From positions 3,286,001 to 3,350,000 of the forward strand of contig NZ_CP095045.1 of NCBI RefSeq assembly GCF_022919155.1: a stretch of DNA of 64,000 bases, in the 5' to 3' direction. The position numbers and the translations under genes were made by a program. The DNA is from Leucobacter allii (GTDB lineage: Bacteria; Actinomycetota; Actinomycetes; Actinomycetales; Microbacteriaceae). Position 1 is the stretch's first letter. Each line of letters opens with the position of its first letter. Positions 28,307-32,045 of this stretch are shown piece by piece. The notes beneath the pieces were generated by a model. That model saw nothing but the letters and a program-made list of their open reading frames with translations, ran no database searches and had not been told where the DNA came from.

Positions 28307-29707
28307 CTAGCCGATGATGGGACGCTCGTCGGGGAGCCGGTAGAGCTCTCTGCGCTGGCGCACCGCCAGTGCGGAGGCGAGCACGATCGGTCCGACGCGT
28401 CCCACGAGCATGAGCACGGAGAGGACGTACTTCCCGAACGGACCGACCTCCCCGCTGATGCCGACGGAGAGACCGCAGGTCGCGAACGCCGAGATCGTCT
28501 CGAACAGCAGCCGGTCCAATGACGCGTCGCTCACGATCGTGAGGAGTGCCGTCGCCGTGAGCACCAGCGTGGCACCGAGGAACACCACGCTGATCGCCAG
28601 GCGCAGCGTGCTGTTGGGGATCCTGCGCCCCGCCGCGTTCGTATGCTCGGTGCCCTTCGCCTCGGCCCAGATCGCCAGGAAGAGCACGGCGAGCGTGGTC
28701 ACCTTGATGCCGCCAGCGGTCGATCCGGATCCGCCGCCGACGAACATGAGCGCGTCGCTGAGGAGCATCGTCGTCGCCGTCATCGACTCCGTATCCACGA
28801 CGGCGAAGCCGCCGGACCGCAGCATCGCCGAGGCGAAGAGCGCGTTCCCGATCTTCGCAGACCAGGTCTCGCCGCCGATCGTCCCCGGGTTCGTCCACTC
28901 GAATCCGGCCCAGGCGACCGCGCCCAGCGCGAAGAGGACCACGGTCGTGACGATCGTGAGCTTCGTATGGAGCGTCCAGCGCTTCCGCGTCCACTTCGCG
29001 CGGATGAGATTGAGGAACACGGGGAATCCGAAGCTCCCCACGAACACGCCGAGCGCGAGCGGGGTCAGGATCCACGGGTTGCCGGCGAACTGGCCGATGC
29101 CCCCGGCATGCGGCGTGAAGCCGGCGTTCGCGAACGCCGAGATCGCGTAGAACACCCCGTACCAGACTCCGCGCCCGAAGGACTGCTCGACGACGATGAA
29201 GGCGGGGACGAGGGCCAGCATGAGCGCGAGCTCGATCGAGAGCGTCGTGACCACGACCACACGGAGCAGGTGCTTCACATCGCCGAGACCCGTGGTGCCG
29301 ATGCTCGACCGAGCGAAGACGCGGCCGCTGACACCGAGCCGGCGCGTCACCATCCGCGCGAGGAGCAGCGCGATCGTGACGACTCCGAGCGCGCCGGTCT
29401 GAATGGCGGCCAGGATCACGAGCTGCCCGATCATCGACCAGTGCTCGCCCGTATCCACGGTCGTGAGCCCGGTGACCGTGACCGCGGAGACCGCGGTGAA
29501 GAGCGCGTCGTCGAGCGGGGTGACCGCGCCGGTCCGGGAGGAGAACGGCAGCATGAGGAGCGCGGTGAAGAGCAGCACCGCGGCCGCGAACACCAGAATG
29601 GCGATTCTGGCCGGCGAGTGCCCGGCGAGATAGCGGGTGCGTGTGACGGCACGATGCGCGAGGCCGCGCACGCGCTCGCTGAGGCTCTTCACCCTGCGCG
29701 ATTCCAT
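28307..29707 (-). CDS. TrkH/KtrB-type potassium transporter membrane subunit
   Basis: A 466-residue K+ translocating protein with the four M1-P-M2 repeats of the Trk/Ktr/HKT superfamily; filter-region signatures include VTVTGLTTVDTGEHWS, SAFANAGFTPHAGG, GGGSGSTAGGIKVTTLA and ISAFATCGLSVGI. It imports K+ across the membrane, usually gated by a TrkA/KtrA RCK subunit, which is not in this window. ATG at 29707 with GAGGGG 8 nt upstream. It is preceded by a structured leader (29731-29789) that shares sequence with the divergent leader at 29853-29932. Confidence 0.92.
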   Translation of the reverse strand: MESRRVKSLSERVRGLAHRAVTRTRYLAGHSPARIAILVFAAAVLLFTALLMLPFSSRTGAVTPLDDALFTAVSAVTVTGLTTVDTGEHWSMIGQLVILAAIQTGALGVVTIALLLARMVTRRLGVSGRVFARSSIGTTGLGDVKHLLRVVVVTTLSIELALMLALVPAFIVVEQSFGRGVWYGVFYAISAFANAGFTPHAGGIGQFAGNPWILTPLALGVFVGSFGFPVFLNLIRAKWTRKRWTLHTKLTIVTTVVLFALGAVAWAGFEWTNPGTIGGETWSAKIGNALFASAMLRSGGFAVVDTESMTATTMLLSDALMFVGGGSGSTAGGIKVTTLAVLFLAIWAEAKGTEHTNAAGRRIPNSTLRLAISVVFLGATLVLTATALLTIVSDASLDRLLFETISAFATCGLSVGISGEVGPFGKYVLSVLMLVGRVGPIVLASALAVRQRRELYRLPDERPIIG

Positions 29708-29730: not shown

Positions 29731-29789
29731 CGCCGCCGGGGTCGGCGGCGTGCCGACCAGACTTCCCGGCGCACCGCACCCGACTCTAC
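29731..29789 (-). ncRNA. Candidate structured leader of trkH (copy 1 of a shared element)
   Basis: Read leftward: GTAGAGT box (complement of 29783-29789), then a 19-nt core GCCGGGAAGTCTGGTCGGC (complement of 29752-29770). The end of the core can form a hairpin GGTCGGC-ACGCC-GCCGACC (29740-29758) that excludes an overlapping 8-bp hairpin CGCCGCCG-ACCC-CGGCGGCG (29731-29750). The core and box are identical or nearly identical in the divergent leader. The element ends 23-32 nt before the trkH ATG. This is the layout of a cis-regulatory RNA; I cannot assign it to a named family. Confidence 0.6.
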
Positions 29790-29852
29790 CCCGAGGGCGG
29801 CCCGAAGATCGAGCGCCTCCGGCGAGGGGTGACGCCCTCCGCGCCTGAGGGC

Positions 29853-29946
29853 GTAGAGTGGGATGCCGCTGCTCGGGTTCGCCCGACGCAGCGGCTGGTG
29901 TGCCGGGAAGTCTGGTCGGCGAATGACCGACCCGAGCCCCGAGGAG
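29853..29946 (+). ncRNA. Candidate structured leader (copy 2 of the shared element)
   Basis: Same order as copy 1: GTAGAGT at 29853-29859, then a 13-bp hairpin with TTCG tetraloop inserted (29865-29895: arms GCCGCTGCTCGGG and CCCGA/GCAGCGGC), then the identical 19-nt core at 29902-29920, then hairpin GGTCGG-N7-CCGACC (29914-29932). CTCGGG at 29872-29877 could alternatively pair with CCCGAG at 29931-29936, next to the ribosome site GAGGAG at 29941-29946. It precedes the gene starting at 29953 and, further on, nhaA. Confidence 0.6.
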
Positions 29947-29952
29947 TCTTTC

Positions 29953-30441
29953 GTGCCCACCCCGTTCCTGGTACGCGGCGATCCGGTCACCGCGGTGCCG
30001 CCCGATACCGATGCGCCGGAGGGCGCGCCCTCGCGCGGACTGCTCTGGGGCGTGGACCTCGCGGACTGCGCGACCCGGAGGGCGGCTCGCGACCGATGGC
30101 ATCGATCCGTGCACGGCCTGAAGCGCGAGCTCGATCGGCTCCCCGGCATCCGGCGGCTCTGCGTCGCCTGCCGCAGGCCGACCCGCTTCCCGCAATCGAT
30201 GCTCGTGCAGGTCCCGTCGGATGCGGCCTCACGGATCCACACGGATCTCGAGCGCGACCGCGCGCGATATCTGCAGGTGCTCGTCCTCGACATCACGGAC
30301 TGCGCAGCTCCGGTGACACTGCAGCGTCGCCTCGAAGAGGCGCTCGGCTCCCGATCCGGGGCGTGGACCGACGTCACGCTCGCCTGGCGCGATATCGAGG
30401 GGTGCGGATTCACCGAGGCGTGGGCCGGGGATGCGCTCTGA
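29953..30441 (+). CDS. Hypothetical protein upstream of nhaA
   Basis: A 162-residue soluble protein with no signal peptide and no recognised family. A Cys pair lies in [12 protein letters not shown], suggesting a small metal or redox site, and the C-terminal half ([11 protein letters not shown]... [15 protein letters not shown]) reads as alternating beta/alpha. GTG at 29953 follows the perfect site GAGGAG by 6 nt; an in-frame ATG at 29923 would lie inside the leader hairpin and is rejected. Between two monovalent-cation transport genes, it may be a regulator or accessory factor, but nothing in the sequence proves it. Confidence 0.6.
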
Positions 30442-30701: not shown

Positions 30702-32045
30702 TTGGATCCCGCATCCGCACCCGCCCGCCGCACCTTCCCCCGGTACGGGTCGTTCGCCGAGGCGACACGCATCGGCGCACTGCTGCGCAAGGAGGCCGTC
30801 GGCGGCATGCTGCTCGTCGCCGCAGCGCTCATCGCGATCATCTGGGCGAACACGCCCGCCGCAGACGGCTACTTCGCCCTGCGGGACTTCACGATCGGCT
30901 ACGAACCCTGGCATCTGAAGCTCAGCCTCGGAGCGTGGGCCGCCGATGGCCTCCTCGCCGTCTTCTTCTTCCTCGTCGGCCTGGAGCTGAAGCGCGAGTT
31001 CGTCGCCGGCGACCTCAGGAAGTTCCGCACCGCGATCGTCCCCATCGCCGCCGCCGTCGGCGGCGTGGCCGTCCCGGCGCTCATCTACACCGCGATCGTC
31101 GCGCAGCACCCCGAACTCCACTCCGGCTGGGCGATCCCGACCGCCACGGACATCGCCTTCGCCGTGGCCGTGCTCGCGATCATCGGCTCCCACCTGCCCC
31201 CGGCGCTGCGGATCTTCCTGCTCACCCTCGCAGTCGTCGACGACCTGCTCGCGATCAGCATCATCGCCGTGTTCTACACCGACCACATCGAGATCCTGCC
31301 GCTGCTGCTCGCGTGCGCCGTCATCGCGATCTACGGCTTCATCGCCCAGCGCTACCGCGCCTTCTTCGGGCTGCACGCGTTCGCGGCCTGGCTGATCCTG
31401 CTCCCCATCGGAGTCGTCGCGTGGGCGCTGATGCACGCCTCGGGCGTGCACGCCACGATCGCCGGCGTGCTGCTCGGATTCACGATCCCGGTGCTGCATC
31501 GCCGGGCGGACCGCGAGACGGCCGCCGAGCGCCCGGGGCTGTCGGAGGAGTTCGAGCACCGCTTCCGTCCGCTCTCGGCGGGGTTCGCGGTGCCGATCTT
31601 CGCGTTCTTCGCCGCGGGTGTCTCCGTCGGCGGCGCCGAGGGGATCCGCGACGCGATGACGAATCCGCTGACCCTCGCGATCGTGGCCGCCCTGGTCCTG
31701 GGCAAGCCGCTCGGCATCGTGACGACGACCTGGCTCACCACGAAGGCCCTCCGCACGAGCCTCGACCCCGCGCTGCGCTGGATCGACATGATCGGCGTGG
31801 GGCTGCTCGCCGGCATCGGCTTCACCGTGTCGCTGCTCGTCGCCGAGCTCAGCTTCGCCCCGGGCACGGCCGAGCACGACGGGGCCAAGGTCGCGATCCT
31901 CAGCGCCTCCGTGATCGCGGCGCTCGGCGCCGCGGTGGTGCTCGGGGCACGCAACCGCCGGTACCGTCGCATCGCGCAGCGCGATGCGATGGATGCGGAC
32001 GAGGACGGCATCCCCGACGTCTACCAGCAGGAGGATCGCGACTGA
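30702..32045 (+). CDS. nhaA: Na+/H+ antiporter NhaA
   Basis: A 447-residue NhaA with the family signatures: [44 protein letters not shown] (the paired Asp of helix V) and GFTIPV. It has twelve membrane helices and extrudes Na+ in exchange for protons. The hydrophilic C-terminal tail ends [20 protein letters not shown] start at 30702, 5 nt after GAGGAG; the frame is open much further upstream, but that part is leader sequence. Confidence 0.95.

Follow-up and report, generated by a model that had tools for sequence, protein, structure and literature searches.

A 25-nt leader element before trkH and nhaA in Leucobacter allii, a candidate cation-responsive RNA of Actinomycetota

The intergenic region that separates trkH from a small gene and nhaA in Leucobacter allii carries the same short sequence twice, on opposite strands, which raises the question of what such a repeated element does in front of divergent cation-transport transcripts and whether it acts as DNA, as RNA, or as a translated leader.

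Two copies between divergent cation-transport genes

The window, that is, the whole 64,000-nt stretch of DNA analysed here, contains the 19-nt core GCCGGGAAGTCTGGTCGGC exactly twice, at 29752-29770 on the minus strand and at 29902-29920 on the plus strand, as the first-pass annotation had described; a search of the whole genome allowing up to one mismatch returned these two cores and no third. Copy 1 lies 44 nt from the ATG (29707) of the K+ importer gene trkH (28307-29707, minus strand; PF02386 TrkH, 3.7e-50) and copy 2 lies 32 nt from the GTG (29953) of a small open reading frame (29953-30441, plus strand, ~162 aa), distances that correct the 20-32 nt first given for both. Further downstream, the Na+/H+ antiporter gene nhaA has its profile-matched stretch at 30780-31943 on the plus strand (PF06965, 5.7e-126; genome C1:3316780-3317943). 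The small gene had no Pfam match when a longer frame containing it was searched; homologues 52-64% identical to it occupy the same place in three other loci (L008, L015, and L090), where the divergent layout of trkH versus small gene and nhaA is found again, with two cores in each.

Aligned leaders extend the core to a unit of 25 nt, GGWGN-GYCG-G-GAAGNCUGG-U-CGRC-N, which starts at GGTG, 5 nt ahead of the 19-mer, and ends one base past it. These limits were set where information drops: of the 16 positions flanking the core on each side, only those of the -10 region (up to 0.47 bits) and the base directly after the core (0.54 bits) exceed 0.33 bits; the pattern used for this measure fixed most core positions, whose invariance there is by construction. 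The loop was likewise fixed in most search patterns, so that its invariance is partly by construction. With the six inner stem positions left free, the matches listed still had almost only GCCG..CGGC or paired variants; among the listed matches to the one-mismatch pattern, mismatches fell mostly at position 3. Within the unit, positions 6-9 pair with 21-24 (4 bp) and, with an unvarying G•U at 10/20, close the 9-nt loop GAAGNCUGG. Beneath this stem, positions 5 and 25 form a non-Watson-Crick pair, U•G or C•A in most leaders, and the GGWG flank lies ahead of it. The 24-nt blocks of copy 1 (GGTGCGCCGGGAAGTCTGGTCGGC, 29752-29775, minus strand; 25th position A at 29751) and copy 2 (GGTGTGCCGGGAAGTCTGGTCGGC, 29897-29920, plus strand; 25th position G at 29921) differ by one mismatch and share their final 19 nt. 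Both have the stem GCCG/CGGC and the loop GAAGUCUGG, and their pair 5/25 is C•A in copy 1 and U•G in copy 2.

The GTAGAGT box that had been counted as part of the shared leader does stand upstream of each copy (29783-29789, minus strand; 29853-29859, plus strand). It belongs to the promoter and not to the RNA, since it contains TAGAGT, a -10 hexamer of the form TANNNT, located 7 nt upstream of the copy 1 core for the trkH transcript (29783-29788, minus strand) and 37 nt upstream of the copy 2 core for the small gene-nhaA transcript (29854-29859, plus strand). In a de-duplicated set of 176 leaders, 114 have their nearest TANNNT 7-8 nt ahead of the core; the hexamer occurs 3-9 nt from the core in 128, versus 6 in a control window, and within 50 nt upstream in 162, versus 7 within 50 nt downstream and 16 in a window farther upstream. 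Given this gap of 7-8 nt and the usual spacing between a -10 element and the start of transcription, most of these messages should begin at or beside the first G of the core. Other leaders have spacings of up to ~40 nt, and some, including window copy 2, carry a longer 5' stretch before the core, in which some relatives have a hairpin of unrelated sequence. The additional TTCG-loop hairpin attributed to copy 2 is present in the sequence and in the predicted fold between promoter and core (29865-29895, plus strand). As a 5' extension absent from most leaders, it is outside the conserved unit, because positions before the core share no sequence except the -10.

Distribution of the core and its downstream genes

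The core is by no means restricted to this locus. Its pattern, with one mismatch allowed, occurs in 263 of 393 genomes of the class and in 78 of 123 genera, against about 2 of the 393 for the reversed control pattern, which excludes chance; with the stem positions left free, 251 of the 393 still match. In a sample of the phylum, 38 of 119 genomes match, against 3 genomes for the control. The 109 genomes from other classes contribute 28 of these matches, although the stems of three or more (G466, G472, and G553) look like chance. The matches listed in a contig scan, at least 119 stretches, comprise 118 from Actinomycetes and one from the Acidimicrobiia (NCBI rank), and none of those listed is from another phylum. 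Carriage by phages was discarded, with 0 exact core matches in viral contigs. Stems with a base other than C at position 7 were found in 30 of 394 genomes, but most of these rows are chance matches, since the reversed control gave a figure of similar order (~15).

What follows the core is mostly a cation-transport gene: 149 of 185 occurrences in fetched loci, a set that leaves out the window and in which only cluster representatives were searched with Pfam, and 100 of 132 in the contig-scan loci alone. The expected recurrence before nhaA, trkH, and related genes is thus borne out. NhaA is the first called gene in 114 of the 185 (blastp against the NhaA of L010; 113 of the 114 also match the window NhaA); in L015 an overlong called frame makes nhaA appear first, although it is actually the second gene. 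The others comprise CPA1 exchangers (Na_H_Exchanger, 11/185), a CBS protein (8/185, with a CitMHS transporter behind the CBS gene in 7), TrkH (4/185, 75-88% identical to the window TrkH), KimA-like proteins (4/185, of which that of L120 matches KimA 6s3k at 4.1e-29 and the other three are 62-66% identical to it), CitMHS (3/185), a small gene followed by nhaA (2/185, L008 and L090), and CitMHS_2, a Mrp/Nuo type, and TrkA_N (1/185 each); NhaD types are also found among the cation-transport genes behind the core. Seen from the transporter side, in a subset of the NhaA genes from 37 genomes of the class, 33 of 60 have a core 0-350 nt upstream on the same strand. Taken together at the sequence level, this makes control of cation homeostasis in cis a highly probable role for the element.

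The presence of the core differs with the length of the NhaA frame (31 of 42 open frames shorter than 600 aa have one upstream, versus 2 of 18 longer ones), as if two NhaA types, of at least 600 aa and shorter, were under different control. In 36 of the 185 occurrences no recognised cation transporter follows. These include an ABC ATPase (5), PPDK/PEP-utilisers (3), alpha/beta hydrolases (3), DUF2254 (2), and DUF6653 (2), the rest being unassigned or odd genes plus 3 without a called ORF. Cores in L119, L105, L117, L133, and L169 precede genes for an ABC ATPase (nearest solved relative Rv1218c), a PPDK/PEP-utiliser, alpha/beta hydrolases, and a methyltransferase or glycosyltransferase, with no evident cation link. 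The same RNA stands before DUF2254 membrane proteins in L168 and L086 (by Pfam) and, by the look of the sequence, in L243 and L244, a placement that may point to a so far unnoticed function in cation or osmotic stress. We take the membrane proteins behind the core in L137, L103, L247, and L248 to be NfeD- or YqiJ-like from their appearance; that of L137 had no Pfam match.

Evidence for a folded RNA

The two halves of the stem change together. Among 195 occurrences with an upstream TANNNT, 181 have GCCG/CGGC, 12 GUCG/CGAC, one GCUG/CAGC (L236, before NhaA), and one the mismatched GCCG/CGAC (L237, before an exchanger), that is, 13 double changes that keep the stem against 1 single change that breaks it. 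Cores without TANNNT add 15 GCCG/CGGC and 7 variants, none of them fully paired and all chance-looking. A fully paired GGCG/CGCC stem (L232), apparently a transversion covariation, was not counted because it lies in no recognisable leader. In a set of 60 sequences picked to include stem variants, 99.7% of cells are paired, versus 96.2% in shuffles and at most 60% when slid, and stem covariation is 0.141 versus 0.071 in shuffles, none of 500 of which reached it; pairs changed on both sides number 2 versus 1.0 expected (12 of 500 shuffles as high), and the count of pair types is uninformative in this set. Mapped on the NhaA tree, the change at 7/23 is represented on supported branches by no more than 3 independent pairs, each of them concordant (p 0.25).

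Outside the promoter, mutual information peaks at positions 5 and 25, where it is 0.526 against a neutral mean of 0.043 and maximum of 0.138. Across 191 leaders they form U•G in 85, C•A in 50, A•A in 17, A•G in 11, U-A in 10, C-G in 0, and other combinations in 18, and so avoid Watson-Crick pairing. U•G and protonated C•A+ pairs are isosteric. In a tree test covering 76 of 107 rows, ~12 independent pairs on supported branches were on average 10.2 concordant, 0.0 discordant, and 1.8 undiffering (median p 0.002). The compensatory changes that the first-pass annotation had called for are found in the stem, and 5/25 covaries in non-Watson-Crick form.

Orientation is consistent. NhaA follows directly on the same strand for 68 of 127 motifs, and for 2 more, also on that strand, the offset is estimated at -2 or -3 nt. 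NhaA is farther off in 8, and the stretch has no NhaA match in 49; no reversed core was seen beside an NhaA gene, all 70 adjacent cores being on the strand of the gene. A conserved structure with covariation, a position in the 5' leader on the strand of the gene, and a consistent gene theme are general marks of riboswitches, and we are close to certain, from these comparisons, that the element is a structured RNA.

An operator for a transcription factor bound just past the -10 might also produce a sharply bounded block at a fixed 7-8 nt from the hexamer in 114 of 176 leaders, and CCG-N3-AGNCT-N3-CGG is indeed partly symmetric. Such a DNA site is very improbable, however: the spacing reaches ~40 nt elsewhere, the core is always downstream of the -10 where one is found and has a single orientation, the stem halves change together, the asymmetric middle is kept, and covariation of 5/25 between U•G and C•A without C-G has no simple reading in DNA. 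Still harder to credit is an upstream reading frame, GUG NGY CGG GAA GNC UGG UCG, acting as an attenuator. A GTG occupies positions 2-4 in 169 of 191 leaders, but the start codon is missing in the other 22, no stop appears within 20 codons in 140 of 191, third codon positions show the same conservation as the rest, one second codon position (15) varies freely, and 5 covaries with 25. On these start, stop, and codon-position counts we rejected it. Two alternative folds of the RNA fared no better. A G-quadruplex, suggested by four G runs in the commonest sequence, was rejected, since in the CGAC and CAGC variants a G run is interrupted yet the stem persists, and a CCGG/CUGG hairpin, although preferred energetically, leaves the paired changes at 7/23 and 8/22 unexplained.

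It is the isolated 25-mer that folds by energy into this CCGG/CUGG hairpin and not into the covarying stem, and the folding energy of the window leaders is no better than that of shuffles for copy 2 (z 0.10), with z -1.55 for copy 1. The comparative fold would therefore need the help of a ligand or of tertiary contacts. The 3' half of the core has a second possible partner in the leader that follows, with which it forms a helix of at least 6 Watson-Crick pairs in 92 of 191 cases, versus 47.8 expected from dinucleotide shuffles; the 5' half (25 of 191 versus 27.9) and the middle (28 of 191 versus 30.3) have no such excess. More than half of the leaders lack a clear anti-core helix. The string GACCAGG, a fusion of anti-core and Shine-Dalgarno sequence, occurs 8 times versus 0.85 expected. 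A duplex-energy test on 79 of the 114 NhaA leaders gave a mean z of -0.82 with the 3' half, against 0.01 with the 5' half and -0.22 with the middle; swapping leaders between cores (-12.54 versus -12.81) is uninformative, the cores being nearly identical. In the predicted folds of L137 and L246, UCUGGUCGG pairs with the anti-core and the first Shine-Dalgarno bases, and in that of an L021 fragment the anti-core is not on the Shine-Dalgarno.

In the window, the copy 1 anti-core GCCGACC (29740-29746, minus strand) can pair with GGUCGGC of the core, and the copy 2 anti-core CCGACC (29927-29932, plus strand) pairs, by sequence and in the predicted fold, with GGUCGG, 8 nt upstream of the Shine-Dalgarno GAGGAG of the small gene (29941-29946, plus strand). 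These are the hairpins of equal length first proposed to follow each core, and both are indeed 19 nt long (GGUCGGC/GCCGACC and GGUCGG/CCGACC); they are not the conserved fold but a variable pairing that competes for the core's 3' half. The alternative hairpin suspected in copy 1 is there too: CGCCGCC/GGCGGCG (29731-29750, minus strand) can be read from the sequence and is part of the predicted minimum-energy fold, and its formation would make the anti-core of copy 1 inaccessible.

Candidate mechanism, ligand, and relation to known classes

Our best explanation, which we hold to be moderately probable, is that each copy is a 25-nt cis-acting RNA and a new ON switch of translation that responds to a monovalent cation, with Na+ the most likely one. 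Located at the 5' end of the message or close to it, the RNA would bind the ion in its fold. Without ligand, its 3' half CUGGUCGGC would pair with the downstream anti-core beside or over the Shine-Dalgarno and hold translation down; with the ion bound, the 3' half would stay in the aptamer and the message would be freed. Under sodium stress, Na+ exporters (NhaA, CPA1, Mrp, and NhaD/CitMHS types) and K+ importers (TrkH and KimA type) would thus rise together. In the window, trkH and the small gene-nhaA operon, which have divergent promoters, would both go up in response to a single signal. We infer the ON direction, and other modes are possible.

Na+ itself as the ligand is slightly better than an even bet. 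A riboswitch for another signal, namely Li+, K+, c-di-AMP, or pH (through possible protonation of the C•A form), is unlikely, even though K+ importers of TrkH and KimA types are found downstream, NhaA exports Li+ too, both Li+ riboswitch classes have nhaA at the head of their gene lists (PMC9646797, available excerpts), and c-di-AMP inactivates the KimA of B. subtilis (PMC10117811, available excerpts). Na+/H+ antiporters of several unrelated families dominate and fit Na+ best, and no Rfam model for these other signals matched. The first-pass annotation had suggested a switch linked to cations or to c-di-AMP: the dominance of cation genes agrees with the former, and the latter is less probable than Na+ given the preponderance of NhaA downstream. 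A structured RNA bound by a protein or a small RNA instead of an ion is more doubtful still. A short hairpin with a fixed loop is also a typical target of RNA-binding proteins and the comparative tests fit both readings, but the downstream genes share one physiological signal, cation stress, and the three other RNA classes with such genes described in excerpts of PMC9646797 and PMC9337991 bind ions directly.

That the Na+-sensing RNA forms a new riboswitch class spread across Actinomycetota, with a whole aptamer of ~25 nt, often at the very 5' end of the message and among the smallest natural ones, is a tentative proposal to which we give somewhat less than an even chance. In this reading, the conserved wobble, U•G or a protonatable C•A+, may tune the RNA jointly to sodium and pH, the two cues of NhaA. 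We take the element to be a new, abundant, and very small actinobacterial RNA class, for which control of cation transport is very likely. If the proposal is true, Streptomyces and relatives would have a directly testable salt sensor, present in about two-thirds of the sampled genomes of the class. It would also serve as a minimal model for how RNA discriminates Na+ from K+ and as a compact control part that responds to salt; its conserved non-Watson-Crick pair sharpens the structural question.

Searches with Rfam 15 of the window and of the core in 18 other loci gave only chance-level matches (E up to 10), among which the Li+-I, Li+-II, Na+-I, c-di-AMP, and cobalamin models are absent, and the cobalamin likeness once seen in the core is not upheld. 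Together with gene placement and covariation, this agrees with the initial view of an RNA-level leader tied to cation transport and outside named classes. The Li+-I model (nhaA-I, RF03057), run on the whole L. allii genome at E up to 10, found neither copy. It gave a sub-threshold match at C1:91724-91755 (L037; 29.4 bits, cut-off 37), which we set aside as probably due to chance, with P1 collapsed or missing and far from the core. No description of the element, and none of six core strings, was found in the open-licence PMC papers searched. The c-di-AMP riboswitch (ydaO type) is much larger; it resembles the element in occurring in actinobacteria and in touching K+ transport in other bacteria. 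It differs in its reported position before cell-wall hydrolases in Streptomyces (PMC10117811, available excerpts), which also counts against c-di-AMP as the signal here. A study that mined 50 genomes, including Streptomyces avermitilis, makes no mention of nhaA or antiporters in its main text (PMC11109978).

The closest parallels are the Na+ and Li+ riboswitches, for which the excerpts of PMC9337991 and PMC9646797 name hosts without actinobacteria and whose authors expect more Na+ and Li+ sensors. Li+-I, reported there from Proteobacteria, likewise precedes nhaA and is short, and it controls cation exporters translationally, as is proposed here (PMC9646797), but its Rfam consensus, GGGU-P1-AGGU..cGaUGGUCGGGCCGCCAuCg, has 55 positions in two parts, with another order and loop. 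Li+-II (nhaA-II) also leads nhaA and is reported in the same excerpts only from some Gammaproteobacteria (PMC9646797). Na+-I (the DUF1646 motif), whose phyla are named without Actinobacteria in the excerpts of PMC9337991, shares the cation transporter sets downstream and would share, on our reading, the ON switch and the ligand, Na+, that is our leading guess for the window element; it differs in having two extended stems, P1 and P2, with a conserved P1 base and P2 loop, where the present element has one 4-bp stem (PMC9337991). Judged by its genes and layout, the 25-nt element appears to work like Na+-I, Li+-I, and Li+-II without being a member of any of them.
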